A DNA stretch of 64,000 nucleotides, taken from positions 62,001 to 126,000 of the forward strand of contig NZ_RHQM01000003.1 of assembly GCF_003935375.1 (NCBI RefSeq), given 5' to 3'. The stretch's first letter is position 1, and each line of letters opens with the position of its first letter. The translations under genes were made by a program, and so were the position numbers. Below are positions 3,617-32,078 of this stretch, piece after piece. The DNA is from Stutzerimonas xanthomarina. GTDB lineage: Bacteria > Pseudomonadota > Gammaproteobacteria > Pseudomonadales > Pseudomonadaceae. The notes under the pieces were generated by a model. It did not search any database. It was not told the DNA's origin and was given only the letters and a program-made list of their open reading frames with translations.

Positions 3617-3931
3617 TTACTTCTGGCTAAGAACCCACTCGGCGAGGATCTTGGCTTCTTCTTCGGTTACCGGGTTTGGCGGCATCGGGATCGGACCCCA
3701 TACGCCCTGGCTGCCGTTCTTGATGTGGCCGGCCAGCAGATCGGCAGCGCCGTCCTGCCCTGCGTACTTGGCGGCGACTTCCTTGAACGCCGGGCCTACC
3801 AGCTTGGCATCGATGCTGTGGCAAGCTGCGCAAGGCTTGCTCTTGAACAGCGCCTCACCATCCTGCGCCAGTGCCGGCTGCAGGGTCAGCGCGCCGCCCA
3901 GGGCGAGCATCGGGATAAGGATTTTCTTCAT
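3617..3931 (-). CDS. nirM: NirM, cytochrome c551
   Basis: Soluble periplasmic electron donor to cytochrome cd1 nitrite reductase. The 104-residue precursor has a cleavable signal peptide (about 1-22, ending PALA), heme site CAACH (34-38) and an axial Met in IPMPPNP (Met83), all typical of Pseudomonas c551. It heads the nirM-C-F-D-L-G-H run. Its leader is long and structured and holds a perfect FNR/DNR box about 210 bp upstream, so this half of the cluster probably has its own anaerobic promoter separate from nirS. Confidence 0.97.
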
Positions 3932-4142: not shown

Positions 4143-4156
4143 TTGATTGCAATCAA
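4143..4156 (-). promoter_or_regulatory. FNR/DNR box, probably for nirM
   Basis: TTGATTGCAATCAA is a perfect match to the FNR-type consensus TTGAT-N4-ATCAA. A weak xAxxxT hexamer, CATCCT (4115-4120, minus strand), sits 32 nt from the box centre. This predicts a start near 4108 and a leader of about 177 nt before nirM. No plus-strand gene lies nearby, so nirM is the likely target. Confidence 0.7.
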
Positions 4157-7764: not shown

Positions 7765-7778
7765 TTGATCGCAATCAA
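7765..7778 (+). promoter_or_regulatory. FNR/DNR box, probably for nirQ
   Basis: TTGATCGCAATCAA is a perfect match to the consensus, 73 bp upstream of the nirQ start. No good -10 hexamer is seen at class II spacing on the plus strand, so the exact promoter geometry is unclear. Confidence 0.7.
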
Positions 7779-10923: not shown

Positions 10924-11760
10924 ATGGACCAGCCACTCACATTTCCCGCCTCGCTGAGCGCCGCGTTCGCCCCTGGCGAAGTCGCTCTGGTCGGCGCCGG
11001 ACCGGGCGACCCCGGCCTGCTCACCCTGCGTGCCTGGAGCCTGTTGCAACAGGCCGACGCGGTGGTCTACGACCGCCTGGTCAGCGACGGGTTGATGGCG
11101 TTGCTGCCGGCCGACTGCAGCCGCCATTACGTCGGCAAGACCAGTGGCTACCACAGCCTGCCGCAGCCGGAGATCAACCAGCTGCTGGCCGACCTGGCCC
11201 TGCAGAACAAGCGCGTGGTGCGACTCAAGGGCGGCGACCCGTTCATCTTCGGCCGCGGTGCCGAGGAACTGGAATTCCTTCTGCAGCGCGGTATCGACTG
11301 CCAGGTGGTGCCGGGCATCACCGCCGCGGCCGGCTGCAGCGCCTATGCCGGCATCCCGCTGACCCACCGCGATCTGGCGCATTCCTGCCAGTTCATCACC
11401 GGCCACCTGCAGACCAACGGCGAGCTGCACCTGCCCTGGGACGCCCTGGCTCAGGGCGGACAGACGTTGGTGTTCTACATGGGGCTGGCCAGCCTCGGCG
11501 AGATCTCGCGCAACCTGATCTCCGCCGGCCTGCCGGTGGACACGCCCGCCGCACTGATCGGTAACGGCACCCGGGAGAACCAGCAAGTGGTGCGCTGCAC
11601 GCTGCGCCAGCTGCCGAGCATGGCCGACGAGCAGCACCTCACGCCGCCAACCCTGACCGTGATCGGCCGGGTGGTCGGCCTGTTCGCCGAGCGCCAGGTC
11701 CAGCACCCGGCGCGGCTGCACGGTGATCCAGCCGCGCAAACGGAGGCCTTATGCAACTGA
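10924..11760 (+). CDS. nirE: NirE, uroporphyrinogen-III C-methyltransferase
   Basis: SAM-dependent methyltransferase that makes precorrin-2 from uroporphyrinogen III, the entry to siroheme and heme d1. The start ATG at 10924 follows a GGAG site; the open frame upstream has no family similarity. The 278 residues show the class III methyltransferase motifs [28 protein letters not shown] and VPGITAA. The end overlaps nirN by 10 nt. The dedicated copy inside nir distinguishes it from housekeeping CobA/CysG enzymes. Confidence 0.96.
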
Positions 11761-13274
11761 TACCCGCCCTGCTGCTGGCCGCCGCGCTGCCGGCGGCCAC
11801 CTTCGTTGCCCTCGACCTGGCCATACCGCGGGCTGCCGCGGCGACCGAGCCAGCCGACAGTCAGGCGCTGTACGAACAGCACTGTCAGAGCTGCCACGGC
11901 GTCAATCGTCTCGGCGGCGCCGGCCCGGCGCTGTTGCCGGAAAGCCTCAGCCGCATCAAGCCGGCCGAAGCCCAGGCGGTGATTCGCGACGGCCGTCCGG
12001 CGAGCCAGATGGGCGCCTACTCCCAGGTGCTGAACGACGCGCAGATCGCCGGGCTGGTCGACTATCTGTACCAGCCCTCAGCCGTGCCGCCGACCTGGAG
12101 CGACGCCGACATCCGTGCCAGCCACCGCATTCTCAAGGACGTCGCCACGCTGCCAACGACCCCGCAGCACGGCGCCGACCCGCTCAACCTGTTCGTGGTG
12201 GTGGAAGCCGGCAATCACCACGTCCGGGTGCTGGACGGCGATCGTTTCGAGGAGCTGGCGAACTTCCAGTCGCACTTCGCCCTGCACGGCGGGCCGAAGT
12301 TCTCGCCGGACGGTCGCTTCGTCTACTTCGCCTCCCGCGACGGCTGGGTCAGCGTCTACGACCTGCACAACCTGAGCATGATCGCCGAGGTTCGCGCCGG
12401 GCTGAACACGCGCAACCTGGCGGTCAGCAACGATGGCCGCTGGGTGCTGGTGGGCAACTACCTGCCGGGCAATCTGGTGCTGCTCGATGCCCGCGACCTG
12501 TCGCTGGTCAAGCACATCCCCACCGTCGGCCAGGATGGCACGCCGTCACGGGTCAGCGCCGTATACACCGCGCCGCCGCGCGACAGCTTCGTGGTCGCGC
12601 TGAAGGACGTGAAAGAGGCCTGGGAGCTCTCCTACGCCGGCGAGCCGACCTTCGAACCCCGGCGCATCGAGGCCGCCGACTTCCTCGACGACTTCTCCTT
12701 CACCCCCGACTACCGCCACCTGCTGGCCACCTCGCGCAAGGCCCACGGCGGCCAGGTGATCGACCTGGATACTGGCAAGGCGGTCACCGATATCCCGCTG
12801 CCAGGCATGCCGCACCTGGGCTCGGGTATCTACTGGAAACGCGACGGCAAGTGGGTGTTCGCCACGCCCAACGTCAGCAAGGGGCTGATCTCGGTGCTGG
12901 ACCTGGAAACCTGGAAGCTGATCAAGGAGATTCCCACCGAAGGCCCAGGCTTCTTCATGCGCAGCCAGGCCAACTCGCCCTACGCCTGGACCGACGTGTT
13001 CTTCGGCCCGAACAACGACGCCGTGCACCTCATCGACAAGCAGACCCTGGACGTCGCCCACACCCTGCGCCCGATGCCGGGCAAGAACGCCGCCCACGTC
13101 GAGTTCACCAATGACGGCCGCTACGCCCTGCTCAGCGTCTGGGACACCGACGGCGCCCTGCTCGTCTACGACGCCAAGACGCTGGAAGAGGTCAAACGCA
13201 TCCCGATGAACAAGCCCTCCGGCAAGTACAACGTCGGCAACAAGATCGAGTTCGCCGAAGGCACCTCGCACTGA
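11751..13274 (+). CDS. nirN: NirN, dihydro-heme d1 dehydrogenase
   Basis: Periplasmic paralogue of NirS that carries out the last oxidation in heme d1 synthesis and hands the cofactor to NirS. The 507-residue product has a signal peptide (about 1-31), a cytochrome c domain with CQSCH (45-49) and a C-terminal d1-type propeller. Compared with NirS the N-terminal cytochrome domain is shorter. The start overlaps nirE by 10 nt; a hairpin follows the stop. Confidence 0.96.
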
Positions 13275-13376: not shown

Positions 13377-14237
13377 ATGGATATTGATCTCGCCCGCACC
13401 TTTCTCGAGATCATTCGCAGCGGCAGCTTCATCGCCACGGCTGAGCGCCTGCACATTACCCAGACGGCCGTCACCGCGCGCATACAGAACCTGGAAAACC
13501 AGCTGAGCTGCCGGCTGTTCGTGCGCAATCGCGCCGGGGCGCGGCTGACGGCCGATGGCGAGCGCTTTGCCGCCTATGCCCGCCAGCTGGTGCAGACCTG
13601 GGAGGCCGCGCGGCGCGACCTGCCGCTGCCACGCGGTTATGGCGAACTGCTCACGCTCGGCGCCGAGGTGAGCCTGTGCAACCCGCTGATGCTGGCCTGG
13701 GTCCAGCGCCTGCGGCAAGCGCTGCCGGGCCACGCCGTGCGACTGGAAGTGGGCAGCGGCGAAGAATTGCAGAAGAAGCTCGATCTCGGCGTGCTCGACG
13801 CCGCGCTGGTACACCAGCCGGAGTACCTGCCCGGTCTGCAGGTCGAACAGCTGCTGGAGGAAAAGCTGATCCAGGTGGTGCAGGCGCAGAATCCAACGCC
13901 GTATCTGTACGTGGATTGGGGGCCGGCATTTCGCAAGCAGCATAACCAGGCGCTGCCCGAATACACCCGCGCCGCGCTGTCATTCAGCCTCGGGCCGCTG
14001 GCCTTGCAGTATCTGGTGCAATGCGGCGGCCGCGGCTACTTTCGCACCCGCGTGGTCCAGCGCTATCTGGAAGAAGGCGTTCTCAAGCGAGTGGAGCAGG
14101 CGCCGGAGTTCAGCTATCCGGTTTACCTGGTGCATGCTCGCGCCAGCGAATCGCCCGCGTTGCTCAAGGCCGTCGAACTGCTGCGCGAAGTAGCCCTCGA
14201 CGATTACGACTGGTCACGCTGGTACTACGATATCTGA
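13377..14237 (+). CDS. LysR-family transcription regulator
   Basis: A LysR-type regulator of 286 residues. The N-terminal winged helix-turn-helix (about 1-60, with GSFIATAERLHITQTAVTAR as recognition region) is standard, followed by a LysR substrate-binding domain. The ligand and target are unknown. It sits between nirN and the convergent HPP-CBS gene, so it may control the ccoN/HPP-CBS pair; inverted repeats upstream of ccoN are candidate operators. This link is inference. Confidence 0.9.
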   Translation: MDIDLARTFLEIIRSGSFIATAERLHITQTAVTARIQNLENQLSCRLFVRNRAGARLTADGERFAAYARQLVQTWEAARRDLPLPRGYGELLTLGAEVSLCNPLMLAWVQRLRQALPGHAVRLEVGSGEELQKKLDLGVLDAALVHQPEYLPGLQVEQLLEEKLIQVVQAQNPTPYLYVDWGPAFRKQHNQALPEYTRAALSFSLGPLALQYLVQCGGRGYFRTRVVQRYLEEGVLKRVEQAPEFSYPVYLVHARASESPALLKAVELLREVALDDYDWSRWYYDI

Positions 14238-14261: not shown

Positions 14262-15401
14262 TCAGTCCGGCAGCTGCTTGAGCCAGTTGCGGTACAGCGC
14301 GGCGATCAGATCCGTCTGGGTAATCATGCCAACCAGCCGCTGTTGCTCATCGACCACCGGCAGGCAGTGCAGGCCGCGATCCGAGAGTAGATAAACCAGT
14401 TCGACCATGTGCGTATCGGCGGTCACCGAGACTACTGGCGAACTCATGATCGCGCGCAGCTTGGTGCCGCGCAGGAAGTTCAGCTGACCGAAACTGAGCC
14501 GCCCTGGCCGCGGGTGGAAGTGCTTGAGCAGGTCCACCTGGGTGACGATGCCGACCAGTCGATGGTCGTCGCCCTGCACCACCGGCAGCGAGCGCAGCCG
14601 GTGCACCTGCAGGGTCTGCCAGGCCTGCTCGATGAAGGTATCCGGCGTGTGCCAGTACAGATCGCGTGACATCACGTGCGCCGCGGTGATCTCGCCCATG
14701 CTGCGCCGCAGGGCGTGCTTCTCGGTCTGCTTGATCAGCCGCTCGAGGTCGTCACGGGTGACGTCGACGTACTCGCCGAATTCCTGCAGCGCCCGGTCAA
14801 CGTCGTCATGGGTGAAGCTCATGCGCTCGCCCGGCGGCAGGTCGCGGGTGTGATGACTGTTCTCGCGGCTCAGCCGCGGCTTCGGATAGGGATGCCCGGT
14901 CAGGTTGTTGTAGACCAGCGCGACCGCCACCAGGAGCGCCGAATAGAACAGCACCGGCCCGACCAGCGCGTAACCCAGCTGATGCAGCTCCGGGCTGCCC
15001 ACCGCCGCCACCAGCGCCAGCGCGATGCTCGGCGGATGCAGGCAGCGCAGATAGAACAGACAGAGCAGCGACAGGCAAGCCGCCAGCGCCAGCGAGGCGA
15101 TACTGGGCAAGCCGCTCATGCCCAGACTGATGCCGATCAGCGCCGCCAGGAGATTGCCAACCAGAACCGCCCATGGCTGGGCGAACGGGCTGGACGAGGC
15201 GACGAAGACCAGCACCGCCGAGGCGCCGGCTGGCCCCATGATCTGCAGGGTCAGCGAACTGCCGACCAGCATATAGCCGCTGCAGAACACCAGCGGCATG
15301 ACGATGGCAACGCCGAGGGCGGCGCGCAACCACTCCTTCGGCGAAGCATTCAGCGGGGCGGGAAGGAACGAGCGAATCCAGAGGGCGAAAGAGTCGTGCA
15401 T
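14262..15401 (-). CDS. HPP-family membrane protein with tandem CBS domains
   Basis: The 379 residues combine an N-terminal HPP membrane domain (about 20-170, several helices, signature CLHPPS at 120-125) with two C-terminal CBS domains (about 243-292 and 319-368). CBS pairs usually bind adenine nucleotides. HPP proteins of cyanobacteria and chloroplasts were reported to transport nitrite, so a nucleotide-gated nitrite or other anion transporter is possible next to the nir genes; this is inference. The start ATG at 15401 (MHDSFALW) is chosen because upstream sequence is non-homologous. It lies downstream of ccoN on the same strand, with two hairpins between. Confidence 0.88.
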   Translation of the reverse strand: MHDSFALWIRSFLPAPLNASPKEWLRAALGVAIVMPLVFCSGYMLVGSSLTLQIMGPAGASAVLVFVASSSPFAQPWAVLVGNLLAALIGISLGMSGLPSIASLALAACLSLLCLFYLRCLHPPSIALALVAAVGSPELHQLGYALVGPVLFYSALLVAVALVYNNLTGHPYPKPRLSRENSHHTRDLPPGERMSFTHDDVDRALQEFGEYVDVTRDDLERLIKQTEKHALRRSMGEITAAHVMSRDLYWHTPDTFIEQAWQTLQVHRLRSLPVVQGDDHRLVGIVTQVDLLKHFHPRPGRLSFGQLNFLRGTKLRAIMSSPVVSVTADTHMVELVYLLSDRGLHCLPVVDEQQRLVGMITQTDLIAALYRNWLKQLPD

Positions 15402-15496: not shown

Positions 15497-16939
15497 TCAG
15501 CTGGCCAGCAGGGGCGCTGCCTGCGGCACGCGCTCGTCGCGGCGGGCGCGGACGGTCAGCCAGGTGTTCAGCGCCATCAGCAGCATGCCGCTGGCGAAGA
15601 TGGCGCCGCCGGCCATGCGCACGATGTAGCCGGGATGGCTGGCTTCCAGCGCCTCGACGAAGGAATAGGTCAGCGTGCCGTCTTCGTTGATCGCCCGCCA
15701 CATCAGGCCCTGAGTGATGCCGTTGACCCACATCGAGGCGATGTAGAGCACCGTGCCTATGGTCGCCAGCCAGAAGTGCGCATTGATCAGGCCGATGCTG
15801 TGCATCTGCTCGCGCCCCCACAGCCGCGGAATCAGGTGGTACAGCGAGCCGATGGAGATCATCGCCACCCAGCCCAGCGCCCCGGCGTGTACGTGGCCGA
15901 TGGTCCAGTCGGTGTAGTGCGACAGCGCGTTGACCGTCTTGATCGCCATCATCGGGCCTTCGAAGGTCGACATGCCGTAGAACGCCAGCGAGACCACCAG
16001 GAAGCGCAGAATCGGGTCGGTGCGCAACTTATGCCAGGCACCGGAAAGGGTCATCATGCCGTTGATCATGCCGCCCCAGCTCGGCGCCAGCAGGATGATC
16101 GACATCACCATGCCCAGGCTCTGCGCCCAGTCCGGCAGCGCGGTGTAGTGCAGATGATGCGGGCCGGCCCAGATGTAGATCGAGATGATCGCCCAGAAAT
16201 GCACGATGGACAGACGGTATGAGTAGATCGGCCGCCCCGCCTGTTTGGGCACGAAGTAGTACATCATCCCGAGAAAGCCGACCGAGAGGATGAAGCCCAC
16301 CACGCTGTGCCCGTACCACCACTGCACCATCGCATCGGTGGCGCCCGAATACATCGAATAGGACTTGAGCAAGCTCACCGGCACCAGCGCGTGATTGATG
16401 ATGTGCACCATCCCAGTGACGATGATGAAGGCGCCAAAGAACCAGTTGCCGACGTAGATGTGCCGGATCCGCCGGCGGGCGATGGTGCCGAAGAACAGAT
16501 AGGCGTAGAGCACCCAGATCAGCGTCACCCAGAGTGCGATCGGCCACTCCATCTCGGCGTATTCCTTGGAGGTGGTGTAGCCCAGTGCGTAGCTGATCGG
16601 CATTGCCACGCAGGCTGCCTGCCAGCCCCAGAACACCAGTGCCGCCAGCCGATCGGAAATCAGCCGGGCATGGCTGGTGCGCTGAACGATGTAGAAGGAC
16701 GAGGCGAACAGCGCGCCGCCACCGAAGGCGAAGATCACCAGATTGGTGTGGATCGGTCGCAGCCGGCCGAAGCTGGTCCAGGGCAGGTCGAAGTTCAGCT
16801 GCGGCCACACCAGCTGAGCGGCGATGAATACGCCGAGGCCCATGCCGAGCACACCCCAGACCAGCGTCATCAGGGTGAACTGGCGCACCACGTGGTAGTT
16901 GTAGGCAATCGGTTCGGGACTGTTGTGCAGTTCGCTCAT
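15497..16939 (-). CDS. ccoN: orphan CcoN, cbb3-type oxidase catalytic subunit
   Basis: Catalytic subunit I of a cbb3-type cytochrome c oxidase, 480 residues from the ATG at 16939 (MSELHNSP). Longer in-frame starts add a non-homologous tail. About 12 membrane helices are present, with heme and copper ligands visible: IHTNLV (His64), WWYGHS (His211), the helix VII tyrosine region [16 protein letters not shown] (His261-262) and HVHAG (His349, His351). No ccoO, ccoQ or ccoP lies nearby, so it is an orphan CcoN of the kind P. aeruginosa uses to build alternative oxidase isoforms. Its place between nir and nos suggests use under low oxygen or in the presence of nitrite or NO. Confidence 0.92.
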
Positions 16940-17211
16940 GCTCGCCAGGCGGCCGACGCGGGCGCCAGGGAACGAACATCGAGATCTGCCAGCGCAGCGC
17001 AGGCAATGGTCGACGGACCGGCACGCCGCATCCGCTCGCCGCTCCTCCTGGGATCGGTTCATATCGAGCGCGGCGGATTGCCGCGCAGACGGAATGCGTG
17101 CGCATTGTCTGCGGCGCTTTAAATGTTATCTAACGAATAGTATTGCTCGATAAGCGCAATATTTTTGCACTAAAGGCAATTCATGCGTGAAGCGCGCGGG
17201 CGTCTGTACCA
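16940..17211. other. ccoN upstream region with inverted repeats
   Basis: No gene. Two dyads lie close together: ATTGC-N9-GCAAT (17142-17160) and TTGC-N7-GCAA (17165-17179). The second half of the region is more AT-rich than its surroundings, as expected for a promoter. The region lies downstream of the chemoreceptor gene and upstream of ccoN, both on the minus strand. Confidence 0.5.
17142..17179 (-). promoter_or_regulatory. paired inverted repeats upstream of ccoN
   Basis: ATTGC-N9-GCAAT at 17142-17160 and TTGC-N7-GCAA at 17165-17179 share the half-site TTGC/GCAA. They lie about 200 bp before the ccoN start. Such dyads fit a LysR-type or similar dimeric regulator, but they do not match the FNR/DNR box. 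Confidence 0.35.
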
Positions 17212-18321
17212 TTAGGCCGCGCGACTCGCCCCTTTCTCGTACTGATCGACCACGGCGGTGACGATACGCATCACCTCCAGGTTGGCTTCCTCCATCTGGC
17301 CCAGGTGGCGCAACGCGCTTTCCAGGGCGTCCTGAGCGAATGCATCCAGCGCCGCCTGCCCCTGGGCATGCACCGCCGTGTGGGGCCGCTCGATCTGCCG
17401 GAAGCAGTCCAGCGCCTGGATGTCTCGGTTGCCTTCGCCGTAATACCAGCGGCCGAAACGACAGTCGCGCTCGCTCGGCAGCTGCGGAATCGGCTGTGCC
17501 TGGTCGCTCAGCAGGTGGTTGTACACCACGAACTTCAGTGACAGCTCGTCGAGATTGGCCAGCTCGATGCCGGCACGGAAGGAAGACGCGGCGCTGCTGG
17601 CACGCATCGCCCCGGCCAGCTGGTAGAGCGTACGCATCGCCTCGACCGCCACCTCGGTGGTTCGACTGAAGCCCTTGGCGTGGCTGCCCTGCAGCTGTAT
17701 GTAGTCATGCACATTGCGGATTTCGGCCTGCACTTCGCCAATCTTGCGCACGATGTCATCGGTCGCCAGCGCGGTCTTTTCCGCCAGGCTGCGAATCTCC
17801 CCGGCGACAACCGCGAAACCACGCCCGGCCTCGCCGGCACGCGCCGCCTCGATCGCGGCATTCAGCGCCAGCAGATTGGTCTGGCTGGCGATGCCGCTGA
17901 TGAGATCGACGATGCCGTTGATCTCCTGCGAGCGCTCGGCAAGGGTATCGACCTTGCGCGAGGCCAGGCCGAGGCCGTCCTCCATCTCGGCGGCCTTGCC
18001 CTGCAGCTCGCCGAAATGCTTCTGGTTGCTCAGCGCCGCGGCGGCGACCTCGCCGGCACGGGCCTTGTTGTCGCCCAACTGCCCGGTGAGAAACTCGAAC
18101 GACTCGCCGAGATGGGCCACGGAGGTGCTGAAGCGAATCAGCCTTTCCGACACGCCCCGGTAATAGTCGAGCTGTCGCTGGCGCTGCTGGCTGGCAGCTT
18201 CGGCCGCCTGCAGCTGTTGCTCCAGCGCAGCGACGCGCGCCGCCTGTTCGGCGTGACTGGCCTGCAGCGCATTCAGCTCCTGCTCCAGGCGCGTCGCGCT
18301 GTGCTTCCACTTGAACCACAT
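17212..18321 (-). CDS. cytoplasmic methyl-accepting chemotaxis protein with CZB domain
   Basis: Soluble chemoreceptor of 369 residues. A coiled coil (about 8-55) is followed by a short methyl-accepting signalling domain whose hairpin tip is at about 136-182 ([20 protein letters not shown]). A C-terminal chemoreceptor zinc-binding (CZB) domain follows, with the expected ligands His269, Cys287 (CRFGRWYY), His314 and His318. There is no membrane segment or periplasmic domain. CZB receptors have been linked to zinc, oxidant (HOCl) and energy sensing. The gene starts 10 nt after the dehydrogenase stop, so the two are co-transcribed. Confidence 0.92.
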
Positions 18322-18331
18322 GCGCTACACC

Positions 18332-19075
18332 TCAGCTGATGGTGTAACCGTTGTCCACCACCCAATCCTGGCCGAACACGCCGCGCGCGCCCTGGGACAG
18401 CTGGAACAGGATGACGTTGGCCACCGCCGCCGACTCGAGGAAATGCCCCGGCAACAGACGCTTGGTGACGCCCTCGGCGACCGCTTCGAGCTGATCGTCG
18501 TTGAGCCCCAGCGAGCCCCAGATGGCGGTGGCGGTCGGGCCGGGCGAAACCATGTTGATGCGTACATCCAGCGCCGCGAACTCCACTGCCAGCGTGCGCG
18601 CCTGCGCCGCCAACGCCGCCTTGCTGGCGATGTAGGCCGCCAGCCCGGGGAAGGTCGAGCGGATCAGGAAGGTGCCGATGAAGACCACCGAGGCCGGCTT
18701 GGCCAGCTCGGTGCGCAACGCAGCGAAGGTGTTCAGCGCACCGGCGCCATTGACCGCCCACTGCCGATCGAAGGCGGCCATGTCCAGGCCATCGGCCAGC
18801 TCGGCGATACCGGCGTTGGGCACCAGGTAGTGCACCGGTCCCATCTGCGCGGCACGGCGCGCCAGCTGGGCCAGATCTTCAGCCGAGGTGACATCGCCGC
18901 TCAGCCACTGCAGCTGGTCGGCGTGGGTTTCCAGCAGCGGTTCGAGACCGCCGATGCTGCGCGACATCGCCAGCACCCGGGCACCGCGCTGCAGCAGGGC
19001 TGCGCACAACGCCAGACCGATTCCGGAACTGGCGCCGGTGACGACAGCCAGACGATCCTGAAACTCGCTTTTCAT
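18332..19075 (-). CDS. short-chain dehydrogenase/reductase
   Basis: NAD(P)-dependent oxidoreductase of the SDR family, 247 residues. The cofactor motif TGASSGIG is near the N-terminus and the catalytic YIASK is present. The residue 13 before the Tyr, normally Ser, is Thr (FIGTF), a conservative but notable change. Three ATGs lie in a row; the one at 19075 is best spaced from GGAG. A hairpin (19089-19104) sits just before the ribosome site. The substrate is unknown. It lies between nnrS and the CZB chemoreceptor on the same strand. Confidence 0.85.
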   Translation of the reverse strand: MKSEFQDRLAVVTGASSGIGLALCAALLQRGARVLAMSRSIGGLEPLLETHADQLQWLSGDVTSAEDLAQLARRAAQMGPVHYLVPNAGIAELADGLDMAAFDRQWAVNGAGALNTFAALRTELAKPASVVFIGTFLIRSTFPGLAAYIASKAALAAQARTLAVEFAALDVRINMVSPGPTATAIWGSLGLNDDQLEAVAEGVTKRLLPGHFLESAAVANVILFQLSQGARGVFGQDWVVDNGYTIS

Positions 19076-19148
19076 CATCATCTCCGAGCTCGGCGCACGC
19101 CGAGTCACAAGCCGCCTCGCGGCAGCGGTTCTAAGGCTTGGTATTGAC

Positions 19149-19192: not shown

Positions 19193-20383
19193 TCAGCCCG
19201 GATGGCCGTCGACCCGCGGTGCGACCAGCATCGGCGCGTAGCGCCAGACATACAGGGCGAAGGCCGCCGCCCAGCAGGCCGCCGCCAGCCACAGACCGCC
19301 GACCGGCCAGATGACAGAGAGGAATACCCGCGCGGCCGTGCCCAGATTGAACAGCACGAAGGCGCCGATGATGCCCGCCGGCAACTGCAGCGGCCGGCCG
19401 GTGTGGCCGAGGGTCACGCGGGCGATCATCGCCAGGATCAATCCGCCCATGGAGCCGACGCTCAGCGCATGCAGCGAAGGGCTGGACTGCGCCAGCAGAC
19501 CAAAATGCCAGAGCGCCAGGCCGAATGCCGCGACCACCAGCCAGAGCATCGCCAGGTGCAGCGACCAGAGCAGGCCGACCTTCCAGATACCGTGGTCGTA
19601 CCAGCGCGCCAGGCGCAGCAGATGGCCGACGCCGATGGCGACGAACAGCAGGCCCAGCAGCGGATGCGGCTGCAGGGCGACGCCGAAGGCGTGCAGCAGT
19701 GCGACAATCCCGGTGCCCACCAGCAGGGCGACATCCAGCCAGACCCAGGGCTTGACCGCCTCGACCTTGCCCAGGCCGCGCTGAGTGAAGAAAGGAATCA
19801 CCCGGCCGCCGATCAGCGCCATCAGCGCCGCGACCAGCCACAGCCCGGCGAGCACGCCCTGGCGCTGCAGCGCATCGTTGTCCTGCAGCAGGCCGACCAA
19901 GATCAGCACGTCCGCACCAAACATCAGCGTCAGTACCACCACGATCGGGTAATTACGCTTCTGCCGTACGGCCCAGAGCATCCGCGCCATCATCCAGACC
20001 AGCGCCAGCAGGAACAGCAGGTCGAGCGGAGCCAGCCAAGCGGCCGGCAGGCCGAACAGCCAGCACAGGCGCGCGGCCAGCCAGAGCATCGCCAACCCCA
20101 TTAGGCGATTGCCGGACGGCGCCGTCTGGCCGGTCCAGGTCTGCACCGCGGTGAGCAGAAAGCCGGCGACGATTGCCATGGCGAAACCGAACAGCATTTC
20201 GTGACGGTGCCAGGCCAGCCAGCCACCGGTGGGCTGAAAGCCCGGCCAGAGCCCGGTCCACGCGGCGACCCAGAGCGGAATCGCCAGCAGCGCGAACAGG
20301 CTGCCGGCGAGAAAGAAGGGGCGAAAGGCGAGCCGCCAGATAGGCGGAACACTCAGGGCTTTTCGCCGATCGATAACTTGCAC
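19193..20383 (-). CDS. nnrS: NnrS family membrane protein
   Basis: Multi-pass membrane protein of 396 residues with about 12 helices, of the NnrS family found beside denitrification genes. Family members bind heme and copper and reduce damage from nitric oxide. Conserved features are the N-terminal RLAFRPFFLAG, WHRHEMLFGF and the C-terminal MIARVTLGHTGRPL. A near-perfect FNR/DNR box with a spaced -10 element lies about 118 bp upstream, so expression with the nir and nos genes is likely. Confidence 0.95.
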   Translation of the reverse strand: MQVIDRRKALSVPPIWRLAFRPFFLAGSLFALLAIPLWVAAWTGLWPGFQPTGGWLAWHRHEMLFGFAMAIVAGFLLTAVQTWTGQTAPSGNRLMGLAMLWLAARLCWLFGLPAAWLAPLDLLFLLALVWMMARMLWAVRQKRNYPIVVVLTLMFGADVLILVGLLQDNDALQRQGVLAGLWLVAALMALIGGRVIPFFTQRGLGKVEAVKPWVWLDVALLVGTGIVALLHAFGVALQPHPLLGLLFVAIGVGHLLRLARWYDHGIWKVGLLWSLHLAMLWLVVAAFGLALWHFGLLAQSSPSLHALSVGSMGGLILAMIARVTLGHTGRPLQLPAGIIGAFVLFNLGTAARVFLSVIWPVGGLWLAAACWAAAFALYVWRYAPMLVAPRVDGHPG

Positions 20384-20500: not shown

Positions 20501-20514
20501 TTGATTGCGATCAG
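20501..20514 (-). promoter_or_regulatory. FNR/DNR-type box of the nnrS promoter
   Basis: TTGATTGCGATCAG differs from the palindromic consensus at one base. On the minus strand TAGAAA (20472-20477) is centred 33 nt from the box centre, the same spacing as at nirS and nosR. The predicted start is near 20466. Confidence 0.7.
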
Positions 20515-26728: not shown

Positions 26729-28906
26729 TCAGGGTTCCACCACTTGCACTACGGGAATCAACGACGGGTTGGCCGGTGCCTTTTTGCCACGCTTGGCTCG
26801 CTTGTTCTTCAGAATCAGCGGCGGGCACTTGTTCTCATTGTGATAAGTCATTTGGCAGTCCAGGCAGTAGTGGCACTCGTTGTGGTTGATGTGCCCATCC
26901 GGATGGATGGCCTGGATCTCGCATTCCTTAGCGCACAGCTGGCAGGGGCTGCCGCATTCCGGACGGCGCTTGAGCCAGTCGAACAGGCGGACCTTGCTGC
27001 TGATCGACAGCGCCGCACCCAGCGGGCAGACGTAGCGGCAGTACACCTTGCGGGTGAAGATGTTGATGACCAGCAGGAACACCGCGTAGGCGACGAACCA
27101 CCACTGGCGGTCGAACTTGAGGGTGATGGCGGTCTTGAACGGCTCAACCTCGGCGGCCTTCTCGGCCATCATCATCGACTCGAGCGAGAGCCCGAACAGC
27201 ACCAGCAGGACGATGTACTTGATCGCCCAGAGCCGCTCGTGCACCGCGAAGGGCAGCTCGTACTGCGGAACCTTCAGCTTGCGTGCCGCCTCGTTGATCA
27301 GCTCCTGCAGCGCACCGAACGGGCACAGCCAGCCGCAGAACACGCCACGGCCCCAGAGCAGAATGCTGGCGGCGGTGAAGGTCCAGATGATGAAGATCAC
27401 CGGATCGGAGAGGAACAGCTCCCAGCGGAAGTCCTGAAACAGCGCATGGGTGAAGGTCAGCACGTTGACCACCGACAGCTGACCGAGGGCATACCAGCCG
27501 ATGAACACCACGGTGAACACCAGGTAGCCACGGCGCAGCCAGTGCAGGAACTCCGGCCGCTGGGTGAACTTGTCCTGCAGGAACAGGATGACCGTCAGCA
27601 GGCCCAGCGCCGCGAGGATCACGCCGATCTGGAACGACTTCTGGTACCAGATGTTGACCCACACCGGGCGGTTGGCTTCCTCGATGGCAGCCAGTTCCTC
27701 GGCGGTCGGCAGTGGCCGCTCGATGTACTGCTCGGGCATCTGATACGGCAGCTCGAAGCTGGTGAACATGCCGCTGATCGGGCCGATCTGGCGGCGCACC
27801 AGCAGCTCCAGCGTCCAGGGCGAACCTGGATCGAACGCGGCGTGCTCACGGACGATGAACACCGCCATCTCGCTGAAATCCGGAATGCCGTCGGCATACA
27901 CGTCGTCCAGGCGCTGGAAGTCCATGTCGCGGAAGCTGATGACGTTGCCGAACTGGCGCAGCTGCACCCGATCGAAGATGCCGCCGCGCACATAGCCCGA
28001 GCCTTTGAACGAGTATTCGCCGCTGCCCATCACCGCGACGGCGTGCTCGCCTGGCTTGAGCTCGTCCATCAGGGTGCGGTAGTGCGCGTCGCCGAGCAGC
28101 GCGCGGCCGATGGTCGGCGGATTCAGATGGGTGGCGTAGAGGTCGATGAAGGTGTCCTGCACTTCATCCGCCGCAGCCTCGTCGATGCCTTCGCCCTCGG
28201 TGCCCTTGAACGCCTCGTCGATGTCGCCCTTGGTCAGGTGCAGGCGGCGGATCGCGCCGTTGCCGGTCAGCTCGCTCCAGGTGGCCTCTTCGTAGTAATC
28301 CTGGCGGATGGTCGCCGGCTTCTGCGCGATGCCGGCGTTGTCTTCCACCAGCCCCAGCGACACCGCGACATCGTGGGCGGCGCGCATGACGATCTCGTTG
28401 ACCACCATCACCGTGACGGTGGCACCGGTGACGGCATCGATGGTGACTGCATTCTCGTCCCGGGAGCGACCGACCACGACGCGCTGATCGACCCGGATAC
28501 CCTGGTACTTGGCGTTGAATGCGTGCAGTTCTTCTTCGGGAATGCCGATCAGCAGGATCGGCTCATGGTGCTCAAGCACATAGGCATCGACGATCACACC
28601 CTGCGGATCGAGCAGCACCTGCATGTTGATGGGTTTGCCGGAATAGGCGGGAATGTCCACCACATTAATGGACTGAAAGGCGTAGCCGAGTACCTCGTCA
28701 CCCTTGGTGATCGTGCGGACCTGATAGTCGCCCTCGGCTGCCGAGAGACTGGCACCGGGGAAGAACTTGTCGAGGCGCTGCTGCTCGGCTGCATATTCTT
28801 TGGCCTGCAGCGACGATGCGCAGACGCTCAGGATCAGCAGAATGAAAAAGCCCTTGACCCAGGTACTGAACGTACCGGCCAGCGACCAGATTTCACGGGA
28901 AGCCAT
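26729..28906 (-). CDS. nosR: NosR, FMN-binding membrane iron-sulfur protein
   Basis: Membrane flavo-iron-sulfur protein that sustains N2O reduction and supports nos expression. The 725 residues begin with a signal/anchor, then a periplasmic FMN-binding domain (flavinylation-type TGAT in DAVTGATVT), about six membrane helices with two CxxxCP motifs (CGWLCPFG, CRYVCPLG), and a cytoplasmic pair of ferredoxin clusters (CGSPCQLCAKEC and CHYCLDC). It is the first gene of the operon, with a perfect FNR/DNR box upstream. Confidence 0.98.
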   Translation of the reverse strand: MASREIWSLAGTFSTWVKGFFILLILSVCASSLQAKEYAAEQQRLDKFFPGASLSAAEGDYQVRTITKGDEVLGYAFQSINVVDIPAYSGKPINMQVLLDPQGVIVDAYVLEHHEPILLIGIPEEELHAFNAKYQGIRVDQRVVVGRSRDENAVTIDAVTGATVTVMVVNEIVMRAAHDVAVSLGLVEDNAGIAQKPATIRQDYYEEATWSELTGNGAIRRLHLTKGDIDEAFKGTEGEGIDEAAADEVQDTFIDLYATHLNPPTIGRALLGDAHYRTLMDELKPGEHAVAVMGSGEYSFKGSGYVRGGIFDRVQLRQFGNVISFRDMDFQRLDDVYADGIPDFSEMAVFIVREHAAFDPGSPWTLELLVRRQIGPISGMFTSFELPYQMPEQYIERPLPTAEELAAIEEANRPVWVNIWYQKSFQIGVILAALGLLTVILFLQDKFTQRPEFLHWLRRGYLVFTVVFIGWYALGQLSVVNVLTFTHALFQDFRWELFLSDPVIFIIWTFTAASILLWGRGVFCGWLCPFGALQELINEAARKLKVPQYELPFAVHERLWAIKYIVLLVLFGLSLESMMMAEKAAEVEPFKTAITLKFDRQWWFVAYAVFLLVINIFTRKVYCRYVCPLGAALSISSKVRLFDWLKRRPECGSPCQLCAKECEIQAIHPDGHINHNECHYCLDCQMTYHNENKCPPLILKNKRAKRGKKAPANPSLIPVVQVVEP

Positions 28907-28968: not shown

Positions 28969-28982
28969 TTGATTGCAATCAA
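28969..28982 (-). promoter_or_regulatory. FNR/DNR box of the nosR promoter
   Basis: TTGATTGCAATCAA is a perfect palindromic match, identical to the box upstream of nirM. On the minus strand TACCAT (28940-28945) is centred 33 nt from the box centre. The predicted start is near 28934, 28 nt before nosR. Confidence 0.8.
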
Positions 28983-31658: not shown

Positions 31659-32078
31659 ATGATCCAGTGCAAACGCGCATACGAACCGCCGTCGCTGGAA
31701 GACGGCCAGCGCATACTGGTCGACCGGTTGTGGCCAAGGGGTTGCCGCAAGGACAGCCTGGCGCTGCACGCATGGCTGCCGGACCTGGCGCCTTCCACGG
31801 CACTGCGCAAGGCGTTCAAGGGCGGGGAGATCGGGTTTGCGACGTTTCGCCAGCGCTATCGGGACGAACTGGCCGGCCACCCCGAACACTGGTGGGCGCT
31901 ACTGGAGATGGCCGGGCGCGGCACGCTGACGCTGATCTACGCCGCGCAGGACGAGCGGCAGAACAATGCCCGGGTGCTGGCCGAATGGCTGGAGGAGGAA
32001 ATGCAGCGACTGGAGCGTCCCAGCTCGCCGGCCTGCCTTGCCGGCGAACTGGACGGAAGGATCAACGGCGACGGTTGA
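31659..32078 (+). CDS. DUF488 family protein
   Basis: A 139-residue cytoplasmic protein of the DUF488 family, with the typical N-terminal VDRLWPRG, a middle FRQRYRDEL and C-terminal TLIYAAQDERQNNARVLAEWL. Biochemical function is unknown. Its end overlaps the convergent TRAP binding-protein gene by 17 nt. The start ATG follows a GGAGGT site. Confidence 0.85.
   Translation: MIQCKRAYEPPSLEDGQRILVDRLWPRGCRKDSLALHAWLPDLAPSTALRKAFKGGEIGFATFRQRYRDELAGHPEHWWALLEMAGRGTLTLIYAAQDERQNNARVLAEWLEEEMQRLERPSSPACLAGELDGRINGDG

Follow-up and report, generated by a model that had tools for sequence, protein, structure and literature searches.

The characterised HPP protein of cyanobacteria and chloroplasts moves nitrite (Maeda et al. 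2014, as cited in PMC4137279, PMC13170786 and PMC7438415), and two HPP genes of Kuenenia that rise under nitrite limitation were proposed to encode nitrite transporters (PMC7438415). On the side of respiration, denitrifying conditions and nitrite both induce the ccoN3Q3 genes of Pseudomonas aeruginosa, which contribute nitrite resistance (PMC5697931); that CcoN3 gives this resistance is stated in PMC5697931 and PMC12688703, both of which cite Hirai 2016.

Both domains of the protein described here, and nitrite transport by HPP proteins, are already known. To our knowledge, the characterised nitrite carriers of the HPP family are without CBS domains, pairs of which are often regulatory in other proteins. 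A term search of the literature, with most subscription journals outside its scope, returned no paper on a CBS-fused HPP protein tied to hmp, nsrR, norR, nnrS or ccoN3-type loci. For denitrification and nitrosative stress, two questions of practical weight are how the nitrite and nitrate formed in NO detoxification are cleared from the cytoplasm and how cbb3 respiration withstands nitrite. The HPP-CBS protein, a putative anion carrier joined to a putative adenosyl-type sensor and found recurrently with hmp, nsrR, norR, nnrS and a CcoN3-type subunit, offers a specific and easily deleted candidate.

Gene, domains and locus

The window is the whole stretch of 64,000 nucleotides of Stutzerimonas xanthomarina DNA that was analysed. 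Its relevant features are listed below, with the basis of each assignment in brackets.

11751–13274, plus strand: nirN-like gene with a cd1 domain, separated from the HPP-CBS gene by the LysR gene (profile match)
13377–14237, plus strand: LysR-type regulator gene, convergent with the HPP-CBS gene and a frequent neighbour in the family (Pfam)
14262–15401, minus strand: HPP-CBS gene, ATG at 15401, stop codon ending at 14262, 379 aa (ORF call, translation, Pfam, AlphaFold model)
14286–14687, minus strand: CBS pair, about residues 239–372 (Pfam; nearest solved folds are CBS-pair proteins)
14310–14330, minus strand: ribose-type motif GMITQTD of CBS2, residues 358–364 (alignment)
14532–14552, minus strand: ribose-type motif GIVTQVD of CBS1, residues 284–290 (alignment)
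14883–15347, minus strand: TM_HPP membrane domain, residues 19–173 (Pfam; residues 1–178 modelled alone, pLDDT 96)
15030–15047, minus strand: RCLHPP signature, residues 119–124 (alignment)
15497–16942, minus strand: orphan ccoN, CcoN3-type by elimination (TIGR00780, tree)
17212–18321, minus strand: chemoreceptor signalling protein with CZB domain, same run (Pfam)
18332–19108, minus strand: short-chain dehydrogenase (SDR), same run (Pfam)
19193–20383, minus strand: nnrS, which opens the same-strand run (PF05940, E 2e-106)
20501–20514, strand not assigned: FNR/ANR/DNR-type box with a single mismatch, located some 120 bp upstream of nnrS (motif scan)

The fusion of an HPP membrane domain to two CBS domains, as described in the first-pass annotation, was borne out by Pfam, in which TM_HPP (PF04982; E 2.7e-32, 112 bits against a cut-off of 27.2) and the two CBS stretches (E 6.9e-28 and 97.2 bits for the whole protein) all scored above the cut-offs. 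The protein was the sole PF04982 match found by profile search of the source genome; the family also scored above the cut-off in the control genome of S. elongatus. In alignment A2, the RCLHPP motif (R119 to P124) was invariant in all 56 homologue rows. The glycine and aspartate of each CBS motif (G284 and D290 in CBS1, G358 and D364 in CBS2) were likewise present in 56 of 56 rows, with T or S at position 287 in 54 of 56 and at position 361 in 54 of 56. Both repeats fit the pattern G-h-h-T/S-x-x-D, which we take to be the ribose-binding motif of CBS domains.

In most homologues from outside the genus, the two residues that follow HPP (window positions 15024–15029) are GG or SG; within the genus they have drifted (SI in the window; AA, GV, GA, SA, SC and others elsewhere). 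Tandem HPP-CBS pairs were seen in four genus members (L107, 9005–11390; L109, 8958–11297; L112, 8794–11166; L113, 9028–11437), the second copies having the common variant RCMHPPSCALAM and being of a paralogue type with 53–56% identity to the window protein.

Matches to HPP only and to CBS only, on the same strand and at most about 1 kb apart, were found by class search in six genomes (G055, G121, G232, G236, G247 and G330), and the annotation of Maritalea shows an HPP gene with a short CBS gene behind it. The adjacency of such separate genes supports regulation of the HPP domain by the CBS pair and says nothing on which ligand is involved.

The HPP-CBS gene is the last gene of a same-strand run headed by nnrS, with gaps of 84 bp (SDR/nnrS), 10 bp (chemoreceptor/SDR), 269 bp (ccoN/chemoreceptor) and 95 bp (HPP-CBS/ccoN). 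Its placement between nirN and nnrS was correctly annotated at first pass, with the amendment that the LysR gene intervenes on the nirN side, and ccoN, the chemoreceptor gene and the SDR gene on the nnrS side. All 16 nnrS genes examined (15 genus loci and the window) have an FNR/DNR-type box 78–137 bp upstream of the aligned nnrS start, against a background of about 0.05 per 430 bp across those loci overall. Co-transcription from nnrS to HPP-CBS is likely, but only inferred, from the lack of a box within 400 bp upstream of the own-genus ccoN genes (four examined). At the other ccoN loci (25 ccoN loci in all), a box at one mismatch was present in 8 of 21. Scans for sigma-70 promoters (0 promoter-like sites) and terminators (5 terminator-like sites against 3.1 in shuffles) were uninformative.

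Over the whole window, TTGAT-N4-ATCAA with at most two mismatches was matched 32 times, against 9 expected. Perfect boxes were noted at 4143–4156, upstream of a cytochrome-like gene (3617–3931), at 7765–7778, between nirS and nirQ, and at 28969–28982, upstream of a gene at 26729–28906. The CZB (zinc-binding) chemoreceptor recurs in the nnrS run of several genus members and could couple the NO/nitrite response to taxis. A further gene (31659–32078) appeared DUF488-like by eye, and matches to a DUF488 seed were also seen near HPP-CBS in L108, L109, L114 and L124.

Predicted structure

The AlphaFold model of the full-length protein had a mean pLDDT of 91 and a pTM of 0.78. Its membrane part contains long helices at residues 21–46, 48–67, 76–95, 100–117 and 137–167, and a short helix (123–134) starts at the HPP motif in the models; the motif may lie where a half-helix opens, an arrangement found in some anion pathways. 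Knowledge of the family and its motifs suggests that the protein is membrane-placed, that the CBS pair faces the cytoplasm and that the pair binds a nucleotide. The titles of the nearest solved folds of the CBS part name AMP, ADP, ATP, Ap4A, SAM or c-di-AMP; because so many adenosyl-type ligands are named, no single ligand is predicted. The protein is probably regulated by an adenosyl ligand through the CBS pair.

Foldseek returned no significant match for the transmembrane domain. The best VIA-align rows for this domain were those of AtALMT1 (Z 8.2, 7.8 and 7.8; rmsd 6.4–6.7; 157–163 residues aligned), the Z 8.2 row having an rmsd of 6.5 over 163 residues. These Z scores are below the value of about 13 that is recommended for helical bundles; the next rows were at Z 7.0, and the Foldseek E was 0.85. 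The ALMT and RND rows were dropped as proof of fold kinship. A profile search of the membrane domain against the PDB gave nothing at E up to 10, and five HPP domains submitted to Pfam gave only PF04982 in four cases and an additional chance Sdh_cyt row (E 3.7) in the fifth; absence from these lists excludes nothing.

Occurrence in the genus and family

A full-length HPP-CBS homologue was present in all 18 genomes sampled from the genus and in 90 of the 148 sampled from the family (hand tally), which speaks against a chance reading frame. At the 17 other genus loci, nnrS lay within 5 kb in 15 (exceptions L108 and L116), a cd1-domain gene lay within 2.5 kb in 10, and a full ccoN was found in only three (L100, L101 and L105); nnrS directly precedes HPP-CBS in L114 and L115. 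Five genus members without cd1 matches keep the HPP-CBS gene, which is close to nnrS in three of them (L109, L114 and L115) and not in the other two (L108 and L116). From the nnrS counts and the cd1-less members, the usual partner of HPP-CBS in the genus is concluded to be nnrS rather than the denitrification genes.

Of the family genomes that have cd1-type genes, 30 of 40 contained HPP-CBS, against 60 of 108 of those that have none (Fisher p 0.037), and the association gave p 0.39 without the own genus; both values treat the genomes as independent despite their relatedness. Among the 90 HPP-CBS genomes, 60 were without cd1 matches, copper-type nitrite reductase being outside the search. The p value without the own genus and the five cd1-less genus members speak against the specific oxygen-to-nitrite switch proposed in the first-pass annotation. 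A purely denitrification-linked protein was rejected in view of the weak cd1 association and of its retention in genomes without a cd1 reductase. HPP-CBS is tied to tolerance of nitrite and NO, not to denitrification as such.

The orphan CcoN subunit

The gene upstream of HPP-CBS had been described as encoding an orphan oxidase subunit, and rightly so: the window ccoN (TIGR00780, 713 bits against a cut-off of 583) adjoins the HPP-CBS and chemoreceptor genes and not ccoO or ccoP, and two further ccoN genes above the cut-off lie elsewhere in the source genome. In a CcoN tree of 48 rows (43 of them different), the 27 HPP-CBS-adjacent sequences, window included, formed one clade across the family with support of 99/100. 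A CcoN4-type clade of six rows (100/99) was separate from this clade and from the canonical CcoN1/N2. Since the HPP-CBS-linked clade stands apart from the canonical sequences and from the CcoN4 type, its members may provisionally be taken as CcoN3-type by elimination.

Each of six genomes of a related genus contained four ccoN genes above the cut-off, of which two were separated by about 3.5 kb and the remaining two lay at other places. One separate ccoN of G493 lies beside genes named by eye as a GntR/MocR-type (MpaR-like) regulator and a nitrite/sulphite-reductase-like (NirA-like) protein. The counterpart of this orphan ccoN in the three other genomes inspected stands among different neighbours, yet it falls in the same CcoN4-type clade as that of G493.

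Clustering grouped a short protein of 64–88 aa, ccoQ-like to judge from its context, from 14 loci, and in 13 loci its gene directly precedes HPP-CBS. On a plasmid of P. nitroreducens the order is ccoN, a short gene annotated as hypothetical, HPP-CBS and LysR. In P. aeruginosa PAO1, HPP-CBS presumably stands beside ccoN3 in the same gene order; a literature search by PAO1 locus tags found no paper. In L102 (10449–10772), a short ccoN-like remnant was observed between the chemoreceptor gene and HPP-CBS, which suggests that ccoN was once present there and then lost.

Neighbours outside the genus

Several loci place HPP-CBS beside genes of NO detoxification. In Ideonella, norR is divergent from hmpA, which is followed by HPP-CBS with an overlap of 4 bp, and the same norR-hmp-HPP-CBS order occurs without overlap in L060, L066, L068 and Azohydromonas (L149). 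In Pseudoroseomonas (L152), hmp is divergent and an Rrf2/NsrR-like gene, whose product has three cysteines, overlaps HPP-CBS by 11 bp. On plasmids, HPP-CBS is accompanied by an Rrf2 regulator gene and hmpA in Paracoccus marcusii, by ric (iron-sulphur repair) at 2.8 kb in Allorhizobium, and by a nos cluster and pseudoazurin in Jiella. Flavohaemoglobin-like genes of one cluster were seen on both sides of HPP-CBS in L060 (8076–11961).

Six markers (Hmp, NorR, NsrR/Rrf2, NnrS, RIC and truncated haemoglobin) were then counted. The first set comprised 160 loci with a match, from which 18 own-genus loci were removed, leaving 142 outside the genus and 92 after deduplication at 70% identity; the near-duplicates removed included two marker-bearing loci, L066 and L096. 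In the 92 loci, 17 marker matches in 10 loci lay at 0–3 kb (525 kb searched), two at 3–5 kb, both in L137, and none at 5–10 kb (616 kb searched). Were markers as likely far from HPP-CBS as close to it, the chance of all ten loci being near would be 4e-4, a value to be read with the caveat that the families and several seeds were chosen after the neighbours had been seen, that several seeds came from counted loci and that the truncated-haemoglobin family was added after being seen in loci. None of the six markers was found within 5 kb in 81 of the 92 loci, some contigs being shorter. The second set, examined after seeds and thresholds had been fixed, consisted of 40 loci picked by hand from the full-length matches to a search of the phylum, in which 103 of 398 genomes gave a match (counting HPP-only ones); already-used genomes and several close relatives had been left out. 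Rrf2/NsrR-type genes were found in three of the 40 loci, and each time the closest marker lay no more than 150 bp away. One of these (L238) also has a truncated haemoglobin gene at 645 bp, and its Rrf2/NsrR-type protein has a cysteine-rich stretch as in NsrR-like proteins; the Rrf2 matches in L251 and L259 are putative, as the genes were missed by the gene caller. No marker was found at 1–10 kb, and no Hmp, NorR, NnrS or RIC match occurred in this set; 37 of the 40 loci had none of the six markers within 5 kb (some contigs shorter).

Plasmid copies are numerous, with 344 records containing a match, 255 of which cover at least 80% of the query. Twelve annotated plasmid loci were viewed with flanks of 5 kb: four contained a globin gene or a gene related to nitrogen oxides, and eight contained none. 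Among seven other plasmid loci, three were linked, one had a haem-NO-binding gene about 3.8 kb off, two were unlinked and one was unannotated. When the 125 immediate neighbours from 91 loci (143 before deduplication) were run against Pfam, the tally counted FAD_binding_6 and NAD_binding_1 in seven, Globin in five, MCPsignal in four and NnrS in two; the HPP, LysR, ccoN and ccoQ-like clusters had been removed beforehand, as had proteins outside 75–650 aa and those at contig ends.

The first-pass annotation had made its reading depend on gene neighbourhoods that are not random. For nitrogen oxides this part stood, the markers being near HPP-CBS and absent at 5–10 kb; most loci surveyed outside the genus were without markers. 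Taken together, the first-pass proposal finds partial support and keeps the standing of a hypothesis.

Proposed role and alternatives

In this family, the HPP-CBS protein quite probably serves under nitrite/NO stress. A more specific proposal, put forward tentatively and held to be somewhat less likely than not, is that it belongs to the nitrogen-oxide stress response as a carrier or channel for anions, acts in nitrite/nitrate efflux and is regulated via its CBS pair. Located in the inner membrane, it would expel nitrite, or the nitrate that flavohaemoglobin produces, from the cytoplasm, and the cytoplasmic CBS pair would bind an adenosyl ligand and set the activity. In this organism, the protein would be expressed together with nnrS and the nitrite-tolerant CcoN3-type subunit under FNR/DNR-type control. 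Efflux is preferred because Hmp makes nitrate and nitrate reduction makes nitrite in the cytoplasm, and because the linked oxidase subunit appears to be of a nitrite-tolerant type; support for substrate, direction and gating is nonetheless slight. It is rather unlikely that the proposal holds in its widest form, that is, that HPP-CBS is a widespread proteobacterial effector of DNR/NorR/NsrR regulons, an adenylate-gated nitrite/nitrate exporter that clears the flavohaemoglobin product, protects cbb3 respiration and is a partner of the CcoN3 oxidase and NnrS.

Neighbours of a different kind recur in other lineages: a MarR-type regulator and a ClC channel in Burkholderia-like genomes, and an Lrp/AsnC regulator in Massilia/Duganella-type genomes. 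ClC-type genes, often with a MarR-like regulator gene, were seen to adjoin HPP-CBS or to overlap a stand-alone HPP gene in L123 (10230–12440), L161, L190 and L195, and further such loci are L214 (3277–5696), L231, L232, L235, L237 and L240. The protein could accordingly be one of general anion (chloride/nitrate) homeostasis beside ClC channels, for which nitrite/NO neighbours are one use among several and nitrite is no special substrate. A ClC gene lies within 1 kb of HPP-CBS in five loci (L123, L161, L190, L195 and L214) and beside it in 5 of the 40 second-set loci, all of one family (f191); a stand-alone HPP gene of Sphingomonas overlaps a ClC gene by 4 bp, and nitrogen-oxide markers are absent from most loci. 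The recurrent partners in the own family, however, are ccoN, nnrS, LysR and hmp, not ClC, and this reading is considered somewhat improbable. The ClC neighbours also fit an anion role of HPP-CBS as such. The ClC selectivity motif (glycine-serine/proline-glycine) was not found with the pattern used, so nothing was concluded on nitrate versus chloride.

The frequent position of HPP-CBS beside genes for LysR, NsrR/Rrf2, Lrp/AsnC and MarR regulators and chemoreceptors, together with the small size of the transmembrane domain and the often regulatory nature of CBS pairs, would suit a membrane-bound sensor or regulator in which HPP senses a small molecule or the state of the membrane and CBS signals to partners, with no transport at all. 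Such a protein is distinctly unlikely, in that it has no output domain besides CBS, transport has been reported for the HPP family, and HPP-only matches without CBS exist. A solute other than an inorganic anion that is needed in nitrosative stress, such as a thiol, a metal or a haem precursor, would equally be served by neighbours that point to the condition and not to the substrate, and no fold match names a substrate; nitrite transport in the HPP family and the ClC neighbours favour anions, and such a solute appears as improbable as the sensor. That HPP-CBS is a mobile or drifting passenger whose neighbourhoods hold no functional information, as the wide variation of neighbours among lineages and the many plasmid records might suggest, is very hard to reconcile with markers that fall off with distance, with a ccoN-HPP-CBS pairing that holds over a whole CcoN clade and with the proximity of nnrS in three of the five cd1-less genus members.

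Comparison with known systems

HPP-CBS and its locus may be set against several described systems. With the ccoN3Q3 partial operon of P. aeruginosa, loci of the same family share an orphan ccoN, a short protein gene before HPP-CBS and a LysR gene; the window differs in having no short gene, but a 95-bp gap. The PA4129–34 cluster concerns the other orphan type. The setting of the orphan ccoN in G493 resembles this cluster, which contains CcoN4, MpaR and NirA (PMC12688703).

The resemblance of the membrane domain to the ALMT anion channels (best Z 8.2) is a hint only. In MgtE, ClC, CNNM/CorB and OpuCA, a membrane or transporter protein is likewise combined with a cytoplasmic CBS pair, and it is the CBS part that matches; the HPP membrane domain, in contrast, had no convincing match among the other Pfam families and none among PDB sequences. 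The NITR2/HPP nitrite transporters have in common with HPP-CBS the PF04982 family, the HPP motif and a polytopic membrane domain, a likeness drawn from family and motif. HPP-CBS differs from them in its C-terminal CBS pair and in a setting of respiration and NO stress, not of assimilation.
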